Source: Streptomyces sp. 3214.6 (GTDB taxonomy: Bacteria; Actinomycetota; Actinomycetes; Streptomycetales; Streptomycetaceae). Taken from it: DNA of 64,000 nucleotides. The translations under genes were made by a program, and so were the position numbers. The stretch covers positions 558,001-622,000 of the forward strand of contig NZ_LT670819.1 of NCBI RefSeq assembly GCF_900129855.1. The letters run 5' to 3'. Of the stretch, positions 2,488-54,959 are shown piece by piece; position 1 is the stretch's first letter, and every line of letters begins with the position of its first letter. The notes under the pieces were generated by a model, which saw nothing but the letters and a program-made list of their open reading frames with translations, had not been told where the DNA came from and searched no databases.

Positions 2488-2727
2488 CCGGGACAGGGTA
2501 CGGGGGTGCGACCCGCGACCGGTGCACCGTCCCGCGTCGGCACCAGCATCGTTCGGGCCCTTGGTGCTGGTGCTGGTGCTGGTACGGGAATTCGTACGGG
2601 CATTGGACAGCCATTGGTATGGACCTGACACCCTGGTCGGGCTAGGCTCTGCCGCGCCACACCTGAGAGCGCTCTCACCCATCCGCTGTTCCACCCCCAC
2701 TCACTGGAACGACGAAGGGCAACTCCC

Positions 2728-3930
2728 ATGAGACGCACAAGGCTCAAGCACGTCTGCCTGGCCGCGTTACTGACGCTCGCCGGGCTCGGCGGCACGGGCA
2801 CACTCCCCGCCGCGGCGAACGGCGGCGAGCCCACGGCCGCGCCCGCCACAACCACCCCCGGCTCCGCTGCCGCCTCCGCTTCGAGTACCGCCCCCGCCGC
2901 CGCGCTGCTCGACGCCATGCGGCAGGACTTAGGGCTGACAGAGGAACAGGCCGCCGCCCGGCTGGACGCCGAGCGGGCCGCCACCGCGCTCGAACCGAAG
3001 GCGCGCCGCACGGCGGGCGCCGCCTACGCGGGGTCCTGGTTCGACGCCGCCGACGGTCGTCTGACGGTCGCCGTCACCTCGCAGGCCACGCGGTCGACCC
3101 GTGCGACGCTGCGCGCCGAGGGGGCCGGTGTCCGTGTCGTCGAGCACAGCGCACGGGCGCTGGACACGGTGAAGTCACGCATTGACCGGCTTTCCGCCCC
3201 CTTTGGGGTGGGGAGTTGGCACGTCGACCCGGAGGCGAACGCCGTCGTGGTCTCCGTCGTCGGCGACCGGCGCTCCGACAACGATGTCCAGCGGTTCCTG
3301 GCGCAGGCCCGCACCGCCGGTCCCGTCACCGTCGAGACCGTCGCCTCGGCTCCGCGCACGTTCGCGGCGGGCACGGTGGGCGGCGACCCCTACTACACGG
3401 GCAACGTGCGCTGTTCCATCGGCTTCTCGGTGTACGGCGGGTTCGTCACCGCCGGCCACTGCGGCCGGGCCGGCGCCGGCGTCTCGGGCTGGGACGGCTC
3501 CTATGTCGGCGCCTTCCAGGGCTCCTCGTTCCCCGACAACGACTACGCCTGGGTGAGCGTGGGCAGTGGCTGGTGGACCGTTCCGGTCGTGCTCGGCTGG
3601 GGCACGGTCTCCGACCAGCTGGTGCGCGGCTCGGCCGAGGCCCCCGTGGGTGCCTCCGTCTGCCTGTCCGGCTCGACCACGCACTGGCACTGCGGGACGG
3701 TGCTGGCGAAAAACGAGACGGTCAACTACAGCGAGGGCGCGGTGCACCAGATGACGAAGACGAACGTCTGTGCCGAAGGGGGCGACTCCGGCGGCTCGTT
3801 CATCAGCGGCGACCAGGCGCAGGGCGTCACCTCCGGCGGCTGGGGCAACTGTTCTTCCGGCGGCGAGACCTGGTTCCAGCCGGTGAACGAGATCCTCAAC
3901 CGCTACGGGCTCACCCTGCACACCTACTGA
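2728..3930 (+). CDS. Secreted S1 serine protease, streptogrisin/alpha-lytic type with prodomain
   Basis: A 400-residue preproenzyme. Residues 1-30 are a Sec signal (RRTRLKH then a hydrophobic core). Residues about 50-210 are an alpha-lytic-type propeptide that acts as a folding chaperone. The mature chymotrypsin-fold domain follows. The triad is His in TAGHCG (about 242), Asp in PDNDYAWV (about 271) and Ser in GGDSGGS (about 353). Three Cys pairs typical of streptogrisins can be picked out. The enzyme degrades extracellular protein after self-cleavage of the prodomain. GTTGCC-type binding sites are absent; the start follows a GAAGGGCAA ribosome site at 2713-2721. A terminator follows the gene, so it is monocistronic. 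Confidence 0.93.
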   Translation: MRRTRLKHVCLAALLTLAGLGGTGTLPAAANGGEPTAAPATTTPGSAAASASSTAPAAALLDAMRQDLGLTEEQAAARLDAERAATALEPKARRTAGAAYAGSWFDAADGRLTVAVTSQATRSTRATLRAEGAGVRVVEHSARALDTVKSRIDRLSAPFGVGSWHVDPEANAVVVSVVGDRRSDNDVQRFLAQARTAGPVTVETVASAPRTFAAGTVGGDPYYTGNVRCSIGFSVYGGFVTAGHCGRAGAGVSGWDGSYVGAFQGSSFPDNDYAWVSVGSGWWTVPVVLGWGTVSDQLVRGSAEAPVGASVCLSGSTTHWHCGTVLAKNETVNYSEGAVHQMTKTNVCAEGGDSGGSFISGDQAQGVTSGGWGNCSSGGETWFQPVNEILNRYGLTLHTY

Positions 3931-3957
3931 CCGTCTCCCCGCGGTCTCCCCGCGCGT

Positions 3958-3990
3958 GGGGGTGGCCCTCTGTCAGGGAGGGCTACCCCC
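3958..3990 (+). terminator. Stem-loop terminator after the serine protease
   Basis: GGGGGTGGCCCTC at 3958-3970 pairs with 3978-3990 with a single G:T-type mismatch across a 7-nt loop, 28 bp after the protease stop. The 230 bp from here to the next start code for nothing I recognise and should hold the promoter of the lipase. Confidence 0.65.
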
Positions 3991-4224
3991 GCCTTCGTCA
4001 GCGCCGTGGGAGCACCGTGGAACGGAACCCCCAGTGGTCCGAACCGGCCGTACACACCGCCTCGGTGGCCGTGGAACGGACATACCCGCCTCGTCGTGGG
4101 ACGCGTTGGCTCCCGGCTCTGGCCCCGGAGACCAACCCGGCGGTATACAAGCCCAGTTGAACGCGACGAGGACCGGACTGGACGGCGTCGTCGGTGGGCG
4201 TGGGCTTCGAGGGGGAGGAACGCG

Positions 4225-5154
4225 ATGCAGGGCGACATACGCACGGGGAGAGTGGCGAGACTGGCCGGTCGTCGCCGAAAGGGCGTCACCTTCTTGGCGG
4301 CGCTGGCAGGTTGTGCCCTGGTCGCCGCTTCGGCCGCGCCCGCGGCGGCGCACGGCGGGGGCGGTGGTGGTGGCGGAAGCCGGTATGTGGCGCTCGGCGA
4401 CTCCTACACCTCCGGCCCCTTCATCCCCCGGCAGGTCGACGCCAACTGCGCCCGCTCCGACCACAACTACCCGTCGCTCGTGGCCGGGCAGCTGCGGGCG
4501 AGCCTGTTCAAGGACGTCAGCTGCAGCGGGGCGACGACCGAGAACATGTGGAAGCCGCAGGGGACGAACGGCCCTCAGCTCGACGCGCTGAGCCGCGACA
4601 GCAGCCTCGTGACCGTCCAGATCGGCGGCAACGACATCGGCTTCGGCTCGATCATCGGCACCTGCGCCCAACTGGCCCCGCAGGATCCGACGGGCAATCC
4701 GTGCCAACGTCACTACGAGTCCTCGGGCGTCGACCAGCTCACGGTCGAGATCGCCAGGACGGCGCCCAAGGTCGCGCGGGTGCTGGCAGCCGTGCACGGC
4801 AGGGCCCCCCGCGCCCGGGTCCTCGTCGTCGGCTACCCCGACCTCCTGCCCGACGACGGCAGCAGCTGTGCGCCCGCCGTGCCGTTCGCGACGCGGGACT
4901 TCCCCTACCTCCGGGACACCGGCAAACGCCTCAACCTGATGCTGCGTCTGGTGGCCCGCTGGATCCACGCCGAGTACGTCGACACCTACGGTCCGACCAT
5001 CGGCCACGACATGTGCAAGCCTCCGGCGGAACGGTGGATCGAGCCGTTGCGGCCCGCCTCGCCGGCCGCTCCGGCCCACCCCAACGCCAAGGGCGAGGAG
5101 GCGATGGCGGGTGCGGTGCTGAAGCGGCTGGCCCACGGGCGGTACGGCCGCTGA
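4225..5154 (+). CDS. Secreted SGNH/GDSL-type lipase/esterase
   Basis: A 309-residue extracellular ester hydrolase. The ATG at 4225 follows a perfect GGGGGAGGAA at 4211-4220. The signal peptide covers residues 1-42, followed by a HGGGGGGGG linker. SGNH block I is GDSYTSG (Ser about 58), block III is GGNDIG (about 134), and the block V His lies in PAHPNAKGEE (about 285). Pairs of Cys in NCARSDHNYP and GTCAQL...NPCQRH match the disulfides of the Streptomyces GDSL lipases of known structure. The frame extends upstream to 4006, but that part is low-complexity and lacks a signal peptide. Confidence 0.92.
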   Translation: MQGDIRTGRVARLAGRRRKGVTFLAALAGCALVAASAAPAAAHGGGGGGGGSRYVALGDSYTSGPFIPRQVDANCARSDHNYPSLVAGQLRASLFKDVSCSGATTENMWKPQGTNGPQLDALSRDSSLVTVQIGGNDIGFGSIIGTCAQLAPQDPTGNPCQRHYESSGVDQLTVEIARTAPKVARVLAAVHGRAPRARVLVVGYPDLLPDDGSSCAPAVPFATRDFPYLRDTGKRLNLMLRLVARWIHAEYVDTYGPTIGHDMCKPPAERWIEPLRPASPAAPAHPNAKGEEAMAGAVLKRLAHGRYGR

Positions 5155-5275
5155 CTCCGGCCGACTCGGCGGGTGGGCCTTCGGACGGACGATCGTGCAC
5201 CCGGAGGTGCCCGTTCGGACCTTTCCCGGTCGGCCTGCGCCTCGGTAGAGAAGGAGGACCGAGGAAAGGTCCGCC

Positions 5276-9894: not shown

Positions 9895-10046
9895 CTCACG
9901 GGGCTGGACGACGTCTGCGCTGCGCCTCACGAACAATCCCGTCCGGGGCGGCGCCGTGGCCGCCCCGGACGGGGCGAGGCGGAGCCGCCGGCTCCCCCCG
10001 CCCCGAGTCGGCTCCCCAGGGCGACGGCGCTGTCAGTGGCCCCGGC

Positions 10047-44157: not shown

Positions 44158-44183
44158 CCCGCCGAGCCGGGCGGCGCCGCGCT

Positions 44184-44189
44184 TAGGCT
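44184..44189 (+). promoter_or_regulatory. -10 box of a leaderless promoter (MOSC gene)
   Basis: TAGGCT, 6 nt, then ATG 44196, without a ribosome site. Confidence 0.5.
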
Positions 44190-44195
44190 GGTTCC

Positions 44196-44705
44196 ATGAC
44201 CGAGGTCGAGGTGGTGGAGCTGCTGGTGTCGGCGTCGCACCGGTTCGCGGGGCGCCCCGCGGACGGGCCGTCGGACGGCCCGGACGACGAGCTCGTGCGG
44301 GAGGTTCAGGTCCGTCGCGGTCTCGGGCTGGTCGGCGACCGCTACTTCGGCCGCCCGGCCCATCGGGACGCGTCGGTGACCCTCATGGCCGCGGAGAACC
44401 TCCCGCGGCACATCGACGCGGCCGTGGGTCTCCGGCAGACGCGCCGGAACGTCCTGCTGCGGGGCGTCGACATCGACGCCTATGTCGGCTCGACCGTCGT
44501 CCTCGACGGCGCGGCCGGTCCCGTGGCGTTCGCCGTGAACCGTCCGGCGCGCCCCTGCGCGTGGCTGGACGTCACCATCGGCCCCGGCGCCCAGCGCGCC
44601 CTGCGCGGCAAAGGCGGCGTGCGGTGTACGCCGTTGTCGGACGGTGTGCTCGTCCTGGGCCGGGCTACGTTCGAGGTCGTCGACGCGTCTGCCGTCCGGG
44701 CCTGA
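44196..44705 (+). CDS. MOSC-domain protein
   Basis: 169 residues. GLVGDRYFGRPAHRDASVTL, then RRNVLLRGVDIDAYVGSTVV and RPCAWLDV with the conserved Cys of the MOSC fold. MOSC domains handle sulfur or molybdenum cofactor, as in the C-terminus of MoCo sulfurase and YiiM. The protein is a stand-alone MOSC unit in the cytosol. It is separate from the molybdoenzyme at 21-22 kb. Leaderless start. Confidence 0.82.
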   Translation: MTEVEVVELLVSASHRFAGRPADGPSDGPDDELVREVQVRRGLGLVGDRYFGRPAHRDASVTLMAAENLPRHIDAAVGLRQTRRNVLLRGVDIDAYVGSTVVLDGAAGPVAFAVNRPARPCAWLDVTIGPGAQRALRGKGGVRCTPLSDGVLVLGRATFEVVDASAVRA

Positions 44706-44726
44706 GGCGGGAAGCGGCGGGACGCC

Positions 44727-45203
44727 TCATCGTGCGTCGGTCAGGCCGAGTCGGGCGACGATCCGTTTGCCCACCGGCACCCGTACGACCTCGAATTCCT
44801 CCGCCACGGCCCGCACGATCTCCAGGCCGTGCTGGCCGACCCGCGTCGGATCCGGTGCGCAGGGTGCCGGCAGCACCGGATCGCTGTCCCAGACGGCGAT
44901 CTCCACCGTGCCACCGCTGACACGCAGTTGCAGCAGGACCGGCCCGGGCGCGTATCTGAGCGCGTTGGTGACCAGCTCGCTCACCACGAGCTGGGAAAGG
45001 TCCACGGCCCCCACCGACACGGGCGGACCGCCCGGGCGCCGCACGCGGGTGAGGAAGTCGCCCGTGAGCTGCCGCGCCCGGGCGATACAACCGTCCTTGC
45101 CGTCAAGTGCCACCGTCGTCTCGGCAGGGGTCCCGTCGGATGCGGAGAAACGCTGGTCGGGCGGGACACCTGCCATCCGGACCGCCTTCACTACCCCGTT
45201 CAT
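44727..45203 (-). CDS. RsbW-like histidine-kinase-fold ATP-binding protein (anti-sigma type)
   Basis: 158 residues. N-box SELVTNALRYA, G1-like IAVWDSDPVLPA and G2-like RVGQHGLEIVRA form a HATPase_c_2 domain as in the many Streptomyces RsbW homologues. These bind a sigma factor or anti-sigma antagonist and phosphorylate the latter. It diverges from the ECF sigma gene 196 bp away, but ECF factors are not the usual RsbW partners, so a functional link is unproven. Confidence 0.82.
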   Translation of the reverse strand: MNGVVKAVRMAGVPPDQRFSASDGTPAETTVALDGKDGCIARARQLTGDFLTRVRRPGGPPVSVGAVDLSQLVVSELVTNALRYAPGPVLLQLRVSGGTVEIAVWDSDPVLPAPCAPDPTRVGQHGLEIVRAVAEEFEVVRVPVGKRIVARLGLTDAR

Positions 45204-45398
45204 ATCCGCGCGACTACCCGAGAACCCGCCCCCTACGCCCCAAGCGCACCACTCACCCGCCGCGCTCGGCGCGCCTACGCGAACCTGGCCGGCACGGCTG
45301 GGGTTCCACCTTCTGTCGTCGACGTCTGTAACGCTTTTCGCGCCTCATTCCAAGAACAGGTGTAGTGCGTGTGACGAACCCGGTGGAAGGAGACGCCT

Positions 45399-46046
45399 GT
45401 GGCCGGCGCGGAACGGTTACCGAGTGGGCCCGCCGCGGCGGTGCGCGACCCGGAGCTCTTCGAGGAGTTCTACCGGCGCCACGTGGACGCGGTGCTGCGT
45501 TTCGTGGCGCGCCGGGTCGACGACCCGCACACCGCGGCCGACCTGACGGCGGAGATCTTCCTGACCGTCCTGCACTCGGCCCACTCCTACCGGCCGCACC
45601 TCGGCAGTGAGACGGCCTGGCTGTTCGGCATCGCCCGCAATGTGGTGTCGTCGGAGCGTCGCCGGGTCGCGCGGGAGGCGGAGCGCGATCTGCGTTTCTC
45701 CGGGCGGAGGCTGCTGGAGGCCGACGACATCGTCCGTATCGAGGACAGACTCGACGCGGAGAGCCCGGGGCGGCGCGCCCTGGCCGCGCTGGCACGGCTC
45801 CCCGAGGGCGAGCGGGCCGTCATGGAGCTGATCGCGGTGGACCAGCTGACGGTCACCGAGGCGGCGGCTGCGCTGGGCATACGCCAGGTCACGGCCCGCG
45901 TACGACTGCACCGGGCGCGCAAGACGCTGCGCAAGGAGGCGGACGTCGAGGCCGCGGACGCGAACCCGACGGCCGCGGGAACGAGCTCCACGCACGCCAC
46001 GACGCCGGACGCATCGACGCTGTACATCGCAAGGGGGGAAGCATGA
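45399..46046 (+). CDS. ECF-type RNA polymerase sigma factor
   Basis: 215 residues, GTG with GGAAGGAG upstream. Region 2: FEEFYRRHVDAVLRFVARRV, then DLTAEIFLTVLHSAHSY and AWLFGIARNVV. Region 4: ALARLPEGERAVMELIAVDQ then LTVTEAAAALGIRQVTARVR. Linker and tail are typical of ECF factors; the 30-residue Ala/Thr tail is not. It should direct polymerase to its own regulon. It overlaps the next gene by 4 nt (ATGA), marking that gene as its likely partner. Confidence 0.88.
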   Translation: MAGAERLPSGPAAAVRDPELFEEFYRRHVDAVLRFVARRVDDPHTAADLTAEIFLTVLHSAHSYRPHLGSETAWLFGIARNVVSSERRRVAREAERDLRFSGRRLLEADDIVRIEDRLDAESPGRRALAALARLPEGERAVMELIAVDQLTVTEAAAALGIRQVTARVRLHRARKTLRKEADVEAADANPTAAGTSSTHATTPDASTLYIARGEA

Positions 46047-46669
46047 GCACCAGGCCGACGTTCGAGGACCGGCTCCTGGACGAGCTCAAGAGGGAGATCG
46101 AGCTGCGCGAGGCCGGGGCGTGCCGGACCGAACCGACCGAGGTCGGACCGGGCCGGGGCTGGACAAGGGCTTCCGTGCGCTCTCTGCTCGCTCCTCGCCG
46201 GATCGCCTTCGTCGCGACGGCCTGCGCGATGGCCTGGCTCGGCGTGGCGGTCGTACCCGGCTCGTCGGCCGGCCCGTCGGCCGACACGGCGGCGTTCGCG
46301 GCGGAGCTACAGGGGGACGGCACAGTCGAGCTCACCGTCAAGGATCAGGCCATCGGGATCGACGCCCAGCGCGAACTGGCGAGGAAGGTGCGTCCGTGGG
46401 GCATCGAGGTGACGATTGATGTGCTGGCTCCCGGCTATGTCTGCGAGCGCAGCAGGTTCACCCCGTTCCCGGTGATCGAAAGGCGAACCGGGAACGTGGT
46501 CCCCGGCATTGCGATCAAGGCCGGCTGGGACTTCACCTTGCGCCGGGGCAATGTGCTGGCCTTCGAGAACATGAAAGGCATGTCGCGGCCGCGCGCTGTC
46601 GAGCTCTACGCGAGCAAGAGCGAGGCCAAGCCCTGCGTTCCGCTGAAGCTCACGCTGCCCGACGAGTAG
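46043..46669 (+). CDS. Single-TM membrane protein, candidate anti-sigma factor
   Basis: 208 residues. Cytoplasmic N-terminus of about 50 residues (RPTFEDRLLDELKREIELRE), one TM near 52-72 (RIAFVATACAMAWLGVAVVP) and an exported domain of about 130 residues with CERSRFTPFP and KPCVPLK (one Cys each). The 4-nt overlap with the sigma gene and the topology fit an anti-sigma factor or sigma-associated sensor. No zinc-finger anti-sigma motif (HxxxCxxC) is present. Function inferred only from context. Confidence 0.55.
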   Translation: MSTRPTFEDRLLDELKREIELREAGACRTEPTEVGPGRGWTRASVRSLLAPRRIAFVATACAMAWLGVAVVPGSSAGPSADTAAFAAELQGDGTVELTVKDQAIGIDAQRELARKVRPWGIEVTIDVLAPGYVCERSRFTPFPVIERRTGNVVPGIAIKAGWDFTLRRGNVLAFENMKGMSRPRAVELYASKSEAKPCVPLKLTLPDE

Positions 46670-46770
46670 GGACTGTCCCCGCTCACGGCACACCTCAGCG
46701 ACCACTTCACCGCACACCTCACCTCATCTCACCTCAGCGAACACCTCGCCGCACAGAACCCGGTCTTCCC

Positions 46771-48048
46771 ATGGAACCCCCGCCCGTCATCCGCCCATCC
46801 CTACAGCCGTCACCCTCCGCGATCGCCCGGTCACCCGCCTCCCGTCTGGGCTGGCTCGACGCGTTGCGCGGCATCGCCGCACTCGTCGTGGTGCTCGACC
46901 ACTCGTCGGCGGCGTTCCTGCCGGAGTTCCGGCAGGAAGTGATGCCGCAGTTCAACCTCGGCCGGTACGGCATCATGGTGTTCTTCCTGGTGAGCGGCTA
47001 TATCATCCCCGCGTCGCTGGAGCGCCGGGGCTGTGTCCGGTCCTTCTGGATCGGACGGGTCTTCCGCGTGTACCCGCTGTGGGCGGCGGCCGTCACCGGG
47101 GTCCTCGTCCTGAATCTGCTGGGCATCGCCGAGCTGCGTGACGGTCTGGGCCGACAGAGCCTCACCGCCGTGGCCGTCGCCCATGTCACCCTGCTCCAAG
47201 AGCTGCTGGGGACGCCGAGCGTCCTGCTCGTCCTGTGGACGCTCTCCTACGAGATGGCCTTCTATCTGCTGGTCGTCGCCCTCTTCACGGCCGGTCGGCA
47301 CCAGCGGTCGGCGGCGGTCGCCGTCACCCTCGCCGGGTTCGCCGCCGTGAGCGCGACAGCGGGGGTCACCCTGCCGGCCTCGGCGCTCTCCGGCGCGGTC
47401 GGTACCGGCCCGCTGATCGCGCTCACCTCGGTCGCCATGGTGCTCGCCGTCTGCTGGGCGAGCGCCGGGTCACCCGCACTGCGGGTGGTCGGCGGGGTGC
47501 TGGGCGGGGTGTCGGCGCTCGTCCTGGTCGTCTTCAACGGCACGGTGCCCCTGTGGGAGGGGCTGGTGATCCTCTCCGTGATGTTCCTCGGCACCGCCGT
47601 CCACCGGGCCGAGCACGGCCGGAGCAGTTGGCGGCGCGCGGCCGTCACCGCCGCCGTGGTGCTCGGGTGCGCCGTGGGGAGCGCGTACGGCCAGGGCGAC
47701 GACGCCCACTTCACCCGGCGCGGCTGGATCCTGGCGTTCCTGCTGGCCGCGCTCACCTTCGGAGTGGGACTGGCCGCGCGCCACCGGCGCGTACCACGCG
47801 AGCTGATCGGACTGGGAGCGACCAGCTACTCGGTCTATCTGCTGCATCCCGTGCTGCTGGCGGTGACCGACGGCACGATCGGCCGGTGGCGACAGGACAG
47901 TCCGACGCTCGAGCTGGCGTTCTTCGCCGTGCTGCTGCCGTTGTGCGTACTGACCCACCGTTACATCGAAGTGCCGGGCCAGGCATGGGGCCGCAGGCTG
48001 GCACGACGTCGTCGGCCGGACTCGCGCAGAGCCGCTCAGCCGATGTGA
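46771..48048 (+). CDS. Membrane acyltransferase family 3 (OafA/YrhL-like)
   Basis: 425 residues, about ten TM segments. LGWLDALRGIAALVVVLDHS holds the catalytic His of the family; IMVFFLVSGYIIPASLERR and FWIGRVFRVYPLWAA are the conserved second block; YSVYLLHPVLLAVTDG the late block. Transfers acyl (often acetyl) groups to sugars of extracellular polymers or to antibiotics. Substrate unknown. Its 3' end overlaps the convergent chitosanase gene by 13 nt. Confidence 0.88.
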   Translation: MEPPPVIRPSLQPSPSAIARSPASRLGWLDALRGIAALVVVLDHSSAAFLPEFRQEVMPQFNLGRYGIMVFFLVSGYIIPASLERRGCVRSFWIGRVFRVYPLWAAAVTGVLVLNLLGIAELRDGLGRQSLTAVAVAHVTLLQELLGTPSVLLVLWTLSYEMAFYLLVVALFTAGRHQRSAAVAVTLAGFAAVSATAGVTLPASALSGAVGTGPLIALTSVAMVLAVCWASAGSPALRVVGGVLGGVSALVLVVFNGTVPLWEGLVILSVMFLGTAVHRAEHGRSSWRRAAVTAAVVLGCAVGSAYGQGDDAHFTRRGWILAFLLAALTFGVGLAARHRRVPRELIGLGATSYSVYLLHPVLLAVTDGTIGRWRQDSPTLELAFFAVLLPLCVLTHRYIEVPGQAWGRRLARRRRPDSRRAAQPM

Positions 48049-48911
48049 TAGCTGTCGCCGTACACCTTCCAGTCCAGGGGCGGGTCGAGGTCGAGGTTGC
48101 CCTTGCGCAGGAACACGCGCTGGGCCGTGTCGACGCGACTGGTGTCGCTGTGTGCCTCCTCCTGTTTCATGGCCCAGACCCGGGCGTCGAGGAAGGCGTT
48201 CAGATACTTCGTCTCGTCGCCGCCCTGGGCCGGCGGCTTCGCCTTGGTCAGCGCGCGCCGCCGGATGTTGCGGAAACTGGTGGAGTCGGTGCCGTCACCG
48301 TGCATGACGATGGCGTCGTAGTAGGCGAACTGGCCCAGAACGCGCAGTCCGTCCGTCTTGCCCTGCTGGACGGCCGGGTTGAAGTAGACGCGGTCGCGTT
48401 CGTCGTTCTGGGCCTGCTGGAACGCCGTGTCCTGGGCGGCCTTGCGCCAGTCCTTCGGGTAGTTCGGGTCGAGGCCGGCGTGCGAGTCGGTGCCGTTGAC
48501 GGCGCGCAGGGCGGGCAGGTACTTGGCGAGGACGTTGCCGGGCTTGCGGTCGGTGTAGAGCTGTACGAGGTCGAGCATGTCGCCGGTGCCGGAGCAGAAA
48601 CCGATGATGCCCGCGGTGTAGCCGCGGCCGTCGCCGATGTCCTCGATGTACCGGTACTGGGCCTTCCAGTCGAGCGAGGAGTTCTCCGCGCTCGACACCA
48701 GCTTCATGGCGATCTCCTTCTTCGCCGGGTCGTCGAGGCCCTTGGCGGTGGGGGCCGCGGTCGCCGGGAGGGCGTCGAGGAGGGAGGCTGCCGCCAGGGC
48801 GCCGGTGAGGGCGAGGAAGAGGCGGCGGGAGGTGGGAGCGGGGGTGGGGGTGGGGGTGGGGGTGGGGGTGGGGGTGGGGGTAGGCATGGGGCCGTCGATC
48901 GGCCGGGACAT
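48036..48911 (-). CDS. csnA: Tat-exported GH46 chitosanase
   Basis: About 291 residues from ATG 48911 (GTG 48917 and ATG 48887 are alternatives; GGAG lies at 48926-48929). After a (Pro-Thr)n stretch comes a Tat signal TSRRLFLALTGALAAASLLD. The GH46 catalytic Glu is in SSAENSSLDW (about 75) and Asp in EDIGDGRGYTAG (about 92), 17-18 apart as in known chitosanases; GIIGFCSGTGDML and AYYDAIVMHGDG also fit. It cleaves chitosan outside the cell. The Tat route matches what is known for a Streptomyces chitosanase. A palindromic operator lies 60 bp upstream. Confidence 0.9.
   Translation of the reverse strand: MSRPIDGPMPTPTPTPTPTPTPTPAPTSRRLFLALTGALAAASLLDALPATAAPTAKGLDDPAKKEIAMKLVSSAENSSLDWKAQYRYIEDIGDGRGYTAGIIGFCSGTGDMLDLVQLYTDRKPGNVLAKYLPALRAVNGTDSHAGLDPNYPKDWRKAAQDTAFQQAQNDERDRVYFNPAVQQGKTDGLRVLGQFAYYDAIVMHGDGTDSTSFRNIRRRALTKAKPPAQGGDETKYLNAFLDARVWAMKQEEAHSDTSRVDTAQRVFLRKGNLDLDPPLDWKVYGDSYHIG
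48840..48881. repeat. Hexanucleotide microsatellite (GGGGGT)7
   Basis: Seven exact copies of GGGGGT on the plus strand; on the coding strand they give the (Pro-Thr) repeat before the Tat motif. Six-base units keep the frame. G-runs of five could fold into G-quadruplexes in the non-template strand sense of the plus strand. Confidence 0.85.
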
Positions 48912-48970
48912 GTGCACCACAGTGGCTCCAGGTGAGGAGTGGGGGTGGGGTGGCTCTGCGCTGCAACTGA

Positions 48971-48985
48971 TAGGAAGGTTTCCTA
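48971..48985. promoter_or_regulatory. Candidate chitosanase operator
   Basis: TAGGAA-GGT-TTCCTA, perfect 6-bp arms around 3 bases, 60-74 bp upstream of the chitosanase start. From memory it resembles the AGGAAA/TTTCCT palindrome bound by the ROK repressor CsnR at Streptomyces chitosanase genes. Confidence 0.6.
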
Positions 48986-49068
48986 CCAGAGGCCGGTGAC
49001 AGAAGTAACCCATCGAAGCCACGTTCGTGCGATCGAACAAACTGACCCGCCGTCACGCGGGCCGGGAG

Positions 49069-49661: not shown

Positions 49662-49691
49662 TTGACGCCTCATCGGCCCGGCGGCTCTACT
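49662..49691 (+). promoter_or_regulatory. Candidate promoter of the RiPP precursor
   Basis: TTGACG at 49662-49667, 18-bp spacer, TCTACT at 49686-49691; about 36-40 nt of 5' untranslated sequence before the ribosome site. The -35 is good, the -10 imperfect. Confidence 0.45.
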
Positions 49692-49734
49692 CGATTCCGA
49701 TTCAGCGTCACTTCCCTTGCTATGGAGGTATTCC

Positions 49735-49815
49735 ATGAAGATGTTCGGGGCACTGAAAAGGAAGATCGTCGGCGAGAAGAGCCTCAAGGCGTACGCCTGG
49801 TACCTCTGGTACTGA
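49735..49815 (+). CDS. Atropopeptide (tryptorubin-type) RiPP precursor peptide, core AWYLWY
   Basis: A 26-residue gene missed by ordinary ORF cut-offs. GGAGG at 49724-49728 is 6 nt before the ATG. The leader starts MKMFGALKRK and is basic; the C-terminus reads KSLKAYAWYLWY followed directly by the stop. The last six residues AWYLWY differ from the tryptorubin A core AWYIWY only by Leu for Ile. Tryptorubin precursors are similarly short with a basic leader and the core at the very end. The adjacent P450 gene would join the Trp and Tyr side chains; a protease must then remove the 20-residue leader. No protease or exporter gene is adjacent. Confidence 0.88.
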   Translation: MKMFGALKRKIVGEKSLKAYAWYLWY

Positions 49816-49840
49816 GCCGCCGTTGAGCAGGTGAGAAAGC

Positions 49841-49884
49841 GCGTGCGCCCGCCGTCGCCGGTGACGGAGACGGCGGGCGCACGC
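49841..49884 (+). terminator. Perfect 16-bp stem-loop between precursor and P450
   Basis: GCGTGCGCCCGCCGTC at 49841-49856 pairs with GACGGCGGGCGCACGC at 49869-49884 without mismatch, loop 12 nt. It starts 25 nt after the precursor stop and ends 35 nt before the P450 start. It would act as a partial terminator or RNA stabiliser, giving more precursor than enzyme message. Confidence 0.8.
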
Positions 49885-49919
49885 CACCTAAGGTCAAGTC
49901 GCTTCGATGTGGAGACACC

Positions 49920-50966
49920 ATGCCGTCGTCGCCCTCTCTCACCCAGCGTCGCAGGGTCGAATTCGCCCCGCGAATCCGTTCCCTGCTGGACGATCACCTC
50001 GGGGAAAAGGTGTTCCGACTCGATCCCGGCACGGTGGGCGTCGGTTGCGCCGGACTCATCGAGCAGGTCATGGCGACCCGGCCGGCGAACGACTTCGAAC
50101 GGCCCACCTTCAAGCCCCTGCTCGGCCGGGCGATCCCGCGGACCGAGGCCTCGGCCTTGATGCGGGCCGTGGGCCAGGACGTACGTGCGGCGCTCGCCGA
50201 ACCCACCGATCTGTCCACCGACCTCTCCGGGACCTGGCCGCGGATGGCGCACACCTATCTGCGGGACACCGTCTTCGGGCGTGACCCGCGCCGGCTCAAG
50301 GTGCTCGTCGACCGGCGGCTGGAGTGGACGCCCAAGCTGACCTGGACAGTCATCGGCGTGGGGGCCGCATTGCCGGGGCGCGGCGGGGCGCTCGCGCGGA
50401 CCTCGCGGCTCGGCGCGTGCACGGCCGAGGCTGCGACATACGCAGAACGGCGGCACGCCATGGGCATGTACCGCCGGGCCGCGGCTCCGGTGTGTTTCAC
50501 GGTCGCGGCGCTGGTCGCGAACGCGCTGTGGCTCGGGGCTCCCTTCCCTCCCGGCACGCCGAACCGGCACATCATCCACGAGTCGCTGCGGCTGTTGCCG
50601 GTGTCCTGGAACGTGTTGCGGGTCGCCTCCCCCGAGTTCACCGCCCTCGACGAGCGCATCGGCGCCGACGACGACGTCCTGATGCTGCCGCTGCTGTCCC
50701 ACCGGGACCCCGCGCTGTGGGACGACCCCCATGTCTTCCGCCCCGAGCGGTGGCACGACCTCGACCCGGACACCGCTCCCGGATACCTCCCCTTCGGGCA
50801 TGCGAGCGAACGCTGCTGGGGGCGCCACATGGTGCTGCCGCTGGCCGAGCGGCTGCTCGACATCGCCCGGCACAACGGACTCGCACCCGACCCCCGGCAG
50901 ACGGCGGCCAGGGTTCCGCTGGCCGGCCTGATGGGTGTGGTCGACGTCCGCATGCTCTCCAGGTAG
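49920..50966 (+). CDS. Short cytochrome P450, candidate atropopeptide cross-linking enzyme
   Basis: 348 residues, shorter than the usual 400. The I-helix region is poorly conserved (VCFTVAALVANALWLG; no clear acid-Thr pair). ExxR motif in HESLRLLP (Glu 221, Arg 224), PERW segment FRPERWHD, and haem loop FGHASERCWG with the Cys ligand at 299. GGAG at 49911-49914 precedes the ATG by 5 nt. Known atropopeptide clusters consist of a small precursor gene and one P450 that makes the C-C and C-N bonds between aromatic side chains, so this role is inferred from the neighbour. Electron-transfer partners are not nearby. Confidence 0.85.
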   Translation: MPSSPSLTQRRRVEFAPRIRSLLDDHLGEKVFRLDPGTVGVGCAGLIEQVMATRPANDFERPTFKPLLGRAIPRTEASALMRAVGQDVRAALAEPTDLSTDLSGTWPRMAHTYLRDTVFGRDPRRLKVLVDRRLEWTPKLTWTVIGVGAALPGRGGALARTSRLGACTAEAATYAERRHAMGMYRRAAAPVCFTVAALVANALWLGAPFPPGTPNRHIIHESLRLLPVSWNVLRVASPEFTALDERIGADDDVLMLPLLSHRDPALWDDPHVFRPERWHDLDPDTAPGYLPFGHASERCWGRHMVLPLAERLLDIARHNGLAPDPRQTAARVPLAGLMGVVDVRMLSR

Positions 50967-52244: not shown

Positions 52245-54515
52245 TCAGGGAGTGAGCTGCCAGCGCTGGATGTAGCCCGTGTCGATGGACGCACGGTCCT
52301 GGACGCGCAGCTTCCAGGTGCCGTTGACGGGTTGGGCGGAGGCGTCGACCGTGAAGGTCTGGTCGACGTTGTCGGCGGAGCCGCCGCTGCGGTTGAGCAG
52401 GGAGTAGACGGTGCCGTTGGGCCCGACGAGGTCGACGGTCAGGTCACCGCGGTAGGTGTGCACGATGTTGACGTAGACCGAGGTGGTGGCGGAGGCGTTG
52501 CCGTCGCGGCCCGCGATGGTGACCGGCGACTCCACGGCGGCGCCGTTGTCCGGGATGTCGACGCGGGTGGCGTTGGCGTAGATGTAGGCGATCCGCCAGG
52601 TGAAGGTGTCCGAGACGGACGCGCCGGTGCTGTCGGTGACCTTGAGGGTCACGTCGCTGCTGCCGAGGGTGGTCGGCGTGCCGGAGATCAGTCCGCTCGG
52701 GCTGATGCTCAGACCGTCGGGCAGCCCGGTCGCCTCGTAGGTGAGGCCGGCGCCGGTGTTGGTGGTGTAGGCGTCCACCTGCAGGCTGACGGCCTGGCCG
52801 ACACCGCTGACCTGGTCGGCGATCGGGGCGACGTTGACACCGAGGGCTATGCGGCTGCCGACGTTGATGGCGGCCCAGGCGTCGGCGACGGCGAGGTAGG
52901 TGGGGCTGTAGGCGCCGAAGAGGTCGGCCGCGGCCGACAGGGTGGCGGTGCGGGCGCTCGCGTAGTTGGTCGACGAGGTCATGTATGTCGTCAGCGCCCG
53001 GTACCAGATGGCGGCGGCGTTCTCGATGCCGATGCCGGTGACGGCCTGGCCGTCGTAGGTCGGGCTGTCGTAGGCGACGCCGTTGACGGTCTTGGCGCCG
53101 CTGCCCTCGGAGAGCAGGTAGAAGAAGTGGTTCGCGGGACCCGAGGAGTAGTGGACGTCGAGGCCGCCCAGGCTCGAACTCCAGTTGTCGGCGGAGTCAC
53201 CGTCCTTGGAGGGCTTGTCCATGTAGCGCAGCGGGGTGCCGTCGCCGTTGATGTCGATCTTCTCGCCGACGAGGTAGTCGCCGGGGTCGGCGGCGAGGTT
53301 CGAGTGGAACTCGACGGCGGCGGCGAAGATGTCCGAGGTCGCCTCGTTCAGACCGCCGGACTCGCCCGAGTAGGTCAGGTTGGCGGTGGCGGCGGTGACG
53401 CCGTGGCTCATCTCGTGGGCGGCCACGTCGAGGGCGGTCAGCGGGTGCGTGTTGCCTGAGCCGTCGCCGTAGGTCATGCAGAAGCAGCTGTCCTGCCAGA
53501 AGGCGTTGACGTAGCTGCTGCCGTAGTGGGCGCGGCTGTAGGCGGCGACGCCGTCGTTGCGGATGCCGTTGCGGCCGTACACGTCCTTGTAGTAGTCCCA
53601 GGTGGCCGCGGCGCCGAAGGCCACGTCGACACCGGCGGTCTGGCGGTTGGACGGTGTGCCGTCGCCCCAGACATCGTTGTCGTCGGTGAAGAGGGTGCCG
53701 GTGCCGGAGGTGCCCTGGTTGAGGTCGTACGTCTTGTGTCCGGCGCGGCCGCCGTCGGTGAGCTGGTACCTCGATCCCGACAGGGTCGTGCCGAGCGGGA
53801 CCGTGCCGGTGTACTGGCCGGTGCCGGTGCCGGTCTCCACCTGCTCGGCGGCGAGGAGCTGCTTGCCGGTGGCCGCGTCGGTGACCACCTGGAGTTCGCT
53901 CGGTGTGCCGTCCTGCTGGACGCCCCCGACGACCGTCTCCCAGGCCAGGACGGGCTTGCCGGCGCCGGCCCAGACGACGAGGCGGGGCGCGTTCGCGGTC
54001 GCGGAGCCCTTGACCTCGGCGCTCTTGGCGGCCGCGAGGGCCTTGCCGGTGGCGTTCGCGGCGGAGAGCTTCGGGGTGAGGGAGGGCACGGTGAGGGTCG
54101 CCCCGCTCGCCTTGGAGACGGTGGTGCGGCCGCTCTTGTGGTGGACGACCAGGTCGCCGCCGAGGACGGGCAGTCCGGCGTAGGTGCGCTCGTAGCGGGT
54201 GTGGGTGGTGCCGTCGGCGTCCTGGATGACGTCCTTCACGACGAGCTTCTCTTGGGCGCCGAGGGCGAGCTGCCGGGCCGTGGTGCCGGACGTGGTCTGC
54301 GCGCTCTTGATCAGCGAGGCGCGGCGGGCCGGTGACAGGGGTGTCGCGGCGGCGCCCGCGCGGGGCGTGGCGGTGATCCTGGACGGGCCCGGGTCGGCCG
54401 GAGCCGCACCGGCGGTGCCGGTGGGGGCGCCCAGGGCCAGCAGGGTCCCGATGGTCGTCAACGCGAGGGCGGTGGCGCGTCTGCGCCGGAGGGTGGGGCG
54501 GTGTCGCCGGGGCAA
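52245..54515 (-). CDS. Secreted M4 thermolysin-family metalloprotease with C-terminal Ig-like and P domains
   Basis: 756 residues from a TTG with AAGGAG 6 nt upstream. Signal peptide to about residue 32, FTP/PepSY propeptide to about 230. Catalytic domain: AAHEMSHGVTAATANL (zinc HExxH, about 367) and GGLNEATSDIFAAAVEF (third ligand Glu, about 390). A putative Ig domain at about 540-630 (GLTYEATGLPDGLSISPSGL) and a proprotein-convertase P domain from about 640 (ATRVDIPDNG, VNIVHTYRGDLTVDLVGPNG) follow. Degrades extracellular protein; the P domain aids folding or stability. An emfourin-like gene lies 2.8 kb away. Confidence 0.92.
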   Translation of the reverse strand: MPRRHRPTLRRRRATALALTTIGTLLALGAPTGTAGAAPADPGPSRITATPRAGAAATPLSPARRASLIKSAQTTSGTTARQLALGAQEKLVVKDVIQDADGTTHTRYERTYAGLPVLGGDLVVHHKSGRTTVSKASGATLTVPSLTPKLSAANATGKALAAAKSAEVKGSATANAPRLVVWAGAGKPVLAWETVVGGVQQDGTPSELQVVTDAATGKQLLAAEQVETGTGTGQYTGTVPLGTTLSGSRYQLTDGGRAGHKTYDLNQGTSGTGTLFTDDNDVWGDGTPSNRQTAGVDVAFGAAATWDYYKDVYGRNGIRNDGVAAYSRAHYGSSYVNAFWQDSCFCMTYGDGSGNTHPLTALDVAAHEMSHGVTAATANLTYSGESGGLNEATSDIFAAAVEFHSNLAADPGDYLVGEKIDINGDGTPLRYMDKPSKDGDSADNWSSSLGGLDVHYSSGPANHFFYLLSEGSGAKTVNGVAYDSPTYDGQAVTGIGIENAAAIWYRALTTYMTSSTNYASARTATLSAAADLFGAYSPTYLAVADAWAAINVGSRIALGVNVAPIADQVSGVGQAVSLQVDAYTTNTGAGLTYEATGLPDGLSISPSGLISGTPTTLGSSDVTLKVTDSTGASVSDTFTWRIAYIYANATRVDIPDNGAAVESPVTIAGRDGNASATTSVYVNIVHTYRGDLTVDLVGPNGTVYSLLNRSGGSADNVDQTFTVDASAQPVNGTWKLRVQDRASIDTGYIQRWQLTP

Positions 54516-54959
54516 CGGGTTCTCCTTCTGTGCGACGGTCGGCCGGTGATGGGGCCGAGGTGGGGCGGGCCGGCGGGGTGGGGCCGGTCCGGAGCGCTGC
54601 ACGACAGGCGGGTGGAAGGAGGTGGGGGGTGAATGACAGGTGCGCCGCATGATGCGGGCGTGAAGGAATGGTGAACTTCGGCAGCAGAGTGGCACTCCGT
54701 GCACAGCTTTGTCATGGGAATGCCAAAACAACGGCTTGAATTGACCATGACCTTCTGGGGATTCGGTCTGCTAGGCGCACGTTTTCAGCCGGGGTGCACA
54801 CCCGGCTCCCCCGGCCCGACGAACCGTTTCCGTCGTCGCAGGGCCGGAGCGACGGCGCGTTCGAGTGGTCGCGCCGCGTTCGTCGTCGTAGCGTCGGTAG
54901 AGAACGTCACCGGGGCGCGGCACACCGGCGGGTCCCGGGCCGGGCGGGCGGGAGCGGAG
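54516..54959. promoter_or_regulatory. Divergent promoter region of M4 protease and small secreted protein
   Basis: 444 bp with no gene of its own. Two AT-richer stretches (54680-54780). TTGACC at 54741 is a possible rightward -35, without a convincing -10 at 17-18 bp. No clear operator. Confidence 0.35.

Follow-up and report, generated by a model that had tools for sequence, protein, structure and literature searches.

A likely two-gene atropopeptide cluster in Streptomyces sp. 3214.6 with a recurrent hairpin between the precursor and P450 genes

The window analyzed here (the whole stretch of 64,000 nucleotides of Streptomyces sp. 3214.6) contains a very short gene whose product ends in KAYAWYLWY, followed by a gene for a cytochrome P450. 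The initial annotation had read this pair as a tryptorubin-type atropopeptide cluster. This raises the question whether the assignment withstands comparison with related loci, which genes belong to the cluster, and what the conspicuous inverted repeat between the two genes may do.

The precursor gene and the P450 gene

The following features were located in the window:

49724..49729, + strand, ribosome-binding site (RBS) of the precursor gene, GGAGGT, 5 nt upstream of the ATG (sequence)
49735..49815, + strand, predicted atropopeptide precursor gene, 26 residues, ATG at 49735 and TGA at 49813-49815 (match to NF038372)
49841..49884, + strand, hairpin, a perfect inverted repeat of 16 bp whose 12 central nt also form pairs (CCG/CGG), with no T-run after it (sequence)
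49911..49914, + strand, probable RBS of the P450 gene, GGAG, outside the hairpin (sequence)
49920..50966, + strand, predicted atropopeptide-class cytochrome P450, 348 residues (Pfam, homologues, tree, AlphaFold model)

Both reading frames and the GGAGGT are seen in the sequence as initially described. The locus had, however, been taken to begin at 49662, where no feature begins; the ATG of the precursor gene is at 49735. The product of the reading frame 49735-49815, MKMFGALKRKIVGEKSLKAYAWYLWY, carries the motif KSLK at residues 15-18, and a hexapeptide core, AWYLWY, occupies residues 21-26. With 48.3 bits against a cut-off of 33, the precursor passed the NCBIfam model NF038372 (tryptorubin_fam). 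It was the single match to this model in the 9.4-Mb genome (E 1.3e-10), and none of 14 control genomes contained a match. The expectation that automatic annotation would miss the gene is only partly right, as the NCBI model NF038372 now catches the precursor; in the S. clavuligerus record, whose gene table is known to be incomplete, no gene stands at the place of the precursor.

The P450 gene starts 104 nt past the precursor stop codon. Its product matched PF00067 (Pfam) with 54.9 bits (cut-off 22.8), a match that covers only residues 218-304. The gene is not truncated, since the best 120 listed of 433 matching proteins are 336-376 amino acids long and cover 93-100% of the P450, at 61-97% identity. 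Cys299, located in PFGHASERCWG, and the pair E221/R224 occupy invariant columns in an alignment of 33 sequences; the cysteine is the heme ligand of P450s, and the glutamate and arginine are the ExxR pair. The P450s at the head of the alignment are 97, 86, 82, 83, 78, 75 and 75% identical. The AlphaFold model reached a mean pLDDT of 76.8 and a pTM of 0.79, and the solved chains matched in a profile search were other P450s, spanning at most residues 207-339 among the matches listed.

A codon comparison with the relative at locus L183 (86% identical) shows selection acting on the P450, with a dN of 0.079 and a dS of 0.453 by NG86 (dN/dS about 0.18) and values of 0.066 and 1.45 by YN00. The two precursors, that of L183 being MKMLGSLKKKITGEKSLKAYAWYIWF, differ by six non-synonymous and three synonymous codon changes of 26, so that purifying selection on the precursor is not shown by this pair.

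Assignment to the atropopeptide family

According to PMC11450843, in which 683 clusters are reported, atropopeptides are defined by a P450 of the class, a KSLK motif in the leader and a Trp at core position 2. The P450 of the window, at 348 amino acids, shares a clade with those of Amycolatopsis xylanica, the species of amyxirubin, and S. clavuligerus, its class being judged by this nesting in the tree. KSLK is present at residues 15-18 of the precursor (17-20 in the numbering of PMC11450843, whose published classifier is AtropoFinder), and the core A-W-Y-L-W-Y has Trp at position 2. A second Trp at core position 5 completes the pattern xWxxWx of the bitryptide subfamily.

A 60-row tree places the window P450 among the 50 rows of atropopeptide type, and a long branch (SH-aLRT 99) separates the remaining 10 rows, which are other P450s; a quick method and long outgroup branches make the exact root of this tree unsure. 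The clade of the window P450 includes A. xylanica (L094), S. clavuligerus (L157), S. sp. SPB074, Tu6071, Xanthomonas and Luteibacter. The P450 belongs to a subclade of eight rows (support 100), of which no characterised member is known to us.

The association of the two genes was followed in both directions. When genome contigs were searched with the P450, 101 relatives were confirmed and the best 80 kept; at each of these 80 a precursor homologue lies beside the P450 (77 found by pattern, three by eye with an altered motif). A P450 is likewise present at 50 of 50 loci that were found through the precursor, one of which (L054) ends at the contig edge. Within the bacterial family, NF038372 scored above cut-off in 49 of 394 genomes, and a second match, below cut-off, occurred in one genome. 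Neither of the two outcomes named in the initial annotation as refuting it was obtained: the P450 does not group with unrelated families, and the precursor has homologues next to related P450s. The precursor model, the P450 tree and the three published criteria all support the initial reading, and we are highly confident that the precursor gene and the adjacent P450 gene together are an atropopeptide cluster of two genes. Its P450 would likely join aromatic residues within the core AWYLWY by cross-links. The cluster adds to a known kind, of which more than 680 have already been published.

Three of the precursors beside atropopeptide P450s (L058, EKNLKSYAWYIWY; L116, RTSLKDNAWALWY; L118, ARSFKRVAWYHWY) carry a motif outside the published list, and a rule demanding the published motifs would miss them. 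QSLK forms of the precursor occur too.

Counting the window, the core AWYLWY was found at 20 of 108 distinct loci, with AWYIWY ahead at 27; three loci missed by the pattern were left out of these counts, and L006-L054 had been selected through the precursor. Among these sequences AWYLWY is a common core, not a special one. On a fast tree AWYLWY showed at least nine state changes and AWYIWY 15, in line with the remark in PMC11450843 on a possible repeated origin of the tryptorubin core.

Known clusters resemble the locus to different degrees. The tryptorubin A cluster (trp) also consists of two genes, precursor then P450, with a KSLK leader (PMC11450843). Its core, given initially as AWYIWY, has Ile in place of the Leu of the window, and the window P450 lies in a separate subclade. 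A P450 from Streptomyces sp. Tu6071, which we take to be a tryptorubin strain, is 62% identical to that of the window over 342 columns. The A. xylanica (L094) and S. clavuligerus (L157) strains, presumably the published producers of amyxirubin and clavorubin, have a KSLK precursor before the P450 (64 and 62% identical to the window P450, respectively) and a hairpin between the genes. In contrast to the window, the amyxirubin/clavorubin core AWYIWW ends in Trp instead of Tyr and has Ile instead of Leu at position 4. The scabrirubin cluster of E. scabrispora shares the family features, and the P450 of an Embleya relative (L158), whose precursor ends in TWFIWYS, is 59% identical. Scabrirubin differs from the window in the length and sequence of the core (TWFIWYS), and its product has a single C-N link (PMC11450843). 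LauA has the core WYIWY, and co-expression of LauA and LauB1 yields tryptorubin B (PMC12352619, PMC11450843).

Extent of the cluster

Ten neighbour genes were tested for recurrence at 81 loci (L055-L134 and L183). Seven of them recur in L183, and none has relatives near more than four of the 81 loci, L183 included; the cluster is therefore taken to consist of the two genes. Two candidate tailoring genes identified with Pfam were rejected on this basis: relatives of the acyltransferase-3 gene (46771-48048) lie near none of the 81 loci, and those of the GH46 chitosanase gene (48036-49040) near four only. The M4 metalloprotease gene (52245-54731) also has relatives near only four loci, and its role as a cluster protease is unsupported. 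This gene, located 1.3 kb from the P450 gene, encodes a thermolysin-type enzyme with a P-domain and an FTP propeptide.

In the 86% relative L183 the flanks are 76-91% identical at the DNA level over most of the compared stretch, and the outer arms of the hairpin are kept. From this comparison the cluster looks inherited in place in the two genomes. L183 lacks a block of the window at 44177-48031 that holds a sigma-factor gene and an acyltransferase-3 gene, and has 0.7 kb in its place. A plasmid home was also considered, as most of the P450 is present in 18 plasmid records, but the locus lies here in a single 9.4-Mb contig.

Predicted product and integrity of the cluster

By analogy with the model for tryptorubin, the basic leader (helix and KSLK) would bind to the P450 so that the core is threaded into its active site, where Trp2, Tyr3 and Trp5 are predicted to be joined through C-C and C-N bonds. 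The outcome would be a tryptorubin-type cage, with three bonds and four hydrogens lost, or at the minimum a single Trp-Trp link, with two hydrogens lost. The leader would probably be cleaved by a host protease encoded outside the cluster. On this analogy the product is likely a small cage-like peptide and an isomer of tryptorubin A, and the cluster adds a further likely source of a tryptorubin-like cage.

The initial annotation had proposed a mass of the hexapeptide minus two hydrogens per bond, which overcounts for the tryptorubin type: three new bonds cost varsorubin B1 four hydrogens (PMC11450843). We infer by analogy that tryptorubin A follows the same count. The computed [M+H]+ values minus four hydrogens are 897.393 for AWYLWY and 826.356 for WYLWY; the predicted single-link forms have values of 899.409, 828.372 and, for WYLW, 665.308. 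As Leu and Ile are isomeric, mass alone cannot separate the product from tryptorubin A. The bonding pattern, too, is not readable from sequence, because the single P450 SvaB makes two patterns (the varsorubins; PMC11450843) and ScaB makes mainly single links (PMC12352619). The authors of PMC11450843 state that P450 phylogeny may guide poorly to structural novelty.

Two alternatives bear on this prediction. That the pair belongs to another P450-RiPP family, such as the biarylitides, the aminopyruvatides (ApyO) or the WxxH sister family described below, is very improbable. ApyO is the top NCBIfam model for the P450, and a short precursor gene near a P450 also occurs in other P450-RiPP families (PMC13417212), but the score of 65.9 bits compares with a cut-off of 525 for this model (NF050147). 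Biarylitide precursors are pentapeptides (PMC13417212), compared with 26 residues here, and the sister P450s are just 39-41% identical, with precursors that lack KSLK. It is also unlikely that the cluster is decayed or silent, with the genes there and no product. No sigma-70 consensus promoter was found, an absence that says little in this genus, and another genome (G728) carries a fragmentary relative. Against decay, both frames are open and preceded by an RBS, Cys299 and E221/R224 are kept, the P450 shows the dN/dS of about 0.18 (NG86), and the hairpin arms are retained in L183, the 86% relative. We keep to the reading of the locus as an atropopeptide cluster.

In the fragment from G728 (L188; contig 22, 3794-4216), recognisable sequence of an atropopeptide-type P450, at 75% identity, is limited to about its C-terminal 144 residues, which lie within a longer open frame. 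L188 is possibly a decayed cluster.

The intercistronic hairpin

The 16-bp repeat between the two genes is the longest perfect inverted repeat (loop of 3-20 nt) of the 64-kb window. The second-longest, at 9938-9973, has 15 bp and a 6-nt loop. By the T-run rule no terminator-like site is present in the precursor-P450 spacer, a result on which a classic intrinsic terminator there was rejected, and no Rfam match to the spacer hairpin was obtained up to an E of 1. As the hairpin lacks a T-run, full termination is unlikely.

To place this structure in the family, 108 distinct precursor-P450 spacers were folded, after removal of identical spacers, of one false pattern match and of loci at which no precursor was found by pattern. 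Sixty of them fold with z < -3, and 50 contain a perfect stem of at least 10. Spacers from the same loci served as controls, the control genes being called by a simple codon-position rule; the corresponding numbers were 19 and 19 of 192 co-directional, 24 and 25 of 67 convergent, and 2 and 2 of 80 divergent spacers. Spacers from related loci are not independent observations. When each P450 cluster (75% identity) was represented once, the hairpin reached -25 kcal/mol or lower in 24 of 25 spacers and -35 kcal/mol or lower in 20 of 25. At these thresholds the co-directional controls gave 108 and 52 of 192 and the divergent controls 47 and 15 of 80, and the convergent controls, with 60 and 44 of 67, showed no difference from the precursor-P450 spacers. 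The threshold of -25 kcal/mol (24/25 vs 108/192) separates less well than that of -35 kcal/mol. Five of the 108 spacers (L013, L062, L071, L100 and L117) fold no better than z -1, and the 49-nt spacers of L062 and L071 have no hairpin.

Conservation of the pairing was assessed in three sets of spacers. A2 and A4 hold all members of a cluster (14 of 14 and 9 of 9, respectively), neither set being picked; A3 holds 12 members from more than one P450 cluster and leans towards structure, since these were picked for similar hairpins. In A2, changes affect both partners in 13 of the 16 pairs, with 48 cells compared with 16.9 in shuffles, and slid versions of the pairing dropped from 89.7% paired to 39-43%. 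Both sides changed in 5 of 13 pairs in A3 and in 6 of 18 in A4, where 18 of 22 pairs were counted and a small second stem was left out. The covariation score was higher than in 500 of 500 shuffles in each of the three sets. At least as many pairs changed on both sides were seen in 0, 14 and 4 of 500 shuffles, and at least as many further pair types in 0, 149 and 107 of 500 (A2, A3 and A4, respectively), tests that are favoured because the structures come from RNAalifold on the same spacers. Whole-spacer alignments of the largest clusters gave five consensus pairs for L006 and none for L007. The covariation points to a hairpin whose pairing survives sequence change.

Such a hairpin would cause most transcripts to end, or to gain protection, past the precursor gene, resulting in far more precursor than P450, and the ratio of precursor to P450 is probably set in this way. 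The function that we infer and favour is partial termination, or protection of the precursor 3' end. It is possible, if rather unlikely, that the hairpin is instead a plain terminator combined with a separate P450 promoter, or a by-product of high G+C. The similar hairpins of convergent spacers, which are terminator sites, speak for this explanation (44/67 at -35 kcal/mol or lower). However, dinucleotide shuffles fold weaker, the co-directional (52/192) and divergent (15/80) spacers are weaker at the same threshold, and the precursor-P450 spacers are so short (median 100 nt) that little room is left for a promoter past the hairpin.

A comparable layout exists in lasso peptide operons, many of which have a terminator-like inverted repeat between the precursor and processing genes, and where replacement of the spacer led to higher yield (PMC5974421). 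The enzymes and peptides of these operons are unrelated to those discussed here; the likeness is an analogy of layout, not kinship. A search of the main texts of two atropopeptide papers, PMC11450843 and PMC12352619, found no mention of a precursor-P450 hairpin. In the sva cluster an RBS placed before svaB increased the yield 100-fold (PMC11450843). Alongside this gain, the hairpin that recurs upstream of the P450 gene suggests a testable explanation for limited native expression of the P450.

A putative sister family of P450-RiPPs with a Trp-x-x-His core

A genus-level P450 search (392 genomes) returned four distant P450s that are 40-41% identical to the window P450 over nearly their whole length. 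Each is preceded by a gene for a peptide of the form MK-x-x-KA-x-V-x-x-FK-x-DEDLA-x-HAWVLHVI. The 394 genomes of the bacterial family contributed 19 more loci, resulting in 23 sister loci (L184-L187 and L189-L207) with P450s 39-41% identical to that of the window. At all 23 a precursor of ~27 residues ends in (A/S)-W-x-x-H-x-I, mostly AWVLHVI, and a relative of the JmjC-domain protein of L184 is encoded downstream (tblastn). PF08007 (Pfam) matched the JmjC protein of L184, the sole one examined. The features of L184 are as follows:

near 2764, stop of the sister precursor gene
2661-4041, P450 frame
4198-5205, JmjC gene

Within 140 nt past the precursor, 15 of the 23 sister loci have a perfect stem of at least 10, and 10 of the 23 fold with z < -3. 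No NCBIfam model matched the precursor of L185, the sole sister precursor examined. Since the sister precursors lack KSLK and have His for the second aromatic residue, the published rule excludes them from the atropopeptides. Text searches of the literature on the AWVLH-type sequence and on RiPP with JmjC, Trp, His and P450 found no description of the sister family, the two papers returned for the former being unrelated by title; Nam et al. (cited in PMC13417212) reportedly sorted the P450-RiPP classes, and the family may be listed there. A P450-RiPP with a Trp-x-x-His core is not described in the consulted text of PMC11450843 and PMC12352619.

Combining these observations, we lean slightly towards a joint reading. 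A hairpin under selection throughout the family would fix the substrate:enzyme ratio, and the same layout would mark a larger superfamily that includes an undescribed sister RiPP family, with a 27-residue precursor ending in HAWVLHVI, a P450 of its own and a JmjC oxygenase for which a further modification of the cross-linked Trp-x-x-His core is predicted. Neither the hairpin nor the sister family would be anticipated by a specialist at an atropopeptide locus, and the sister family offers a lead to P450-RiPPs with a Trp-x-x-His core. JmjC relatives (37-43%) were also found within 10 kb of three PSLK-type atropopeptide loci (L120, L123 and L133).
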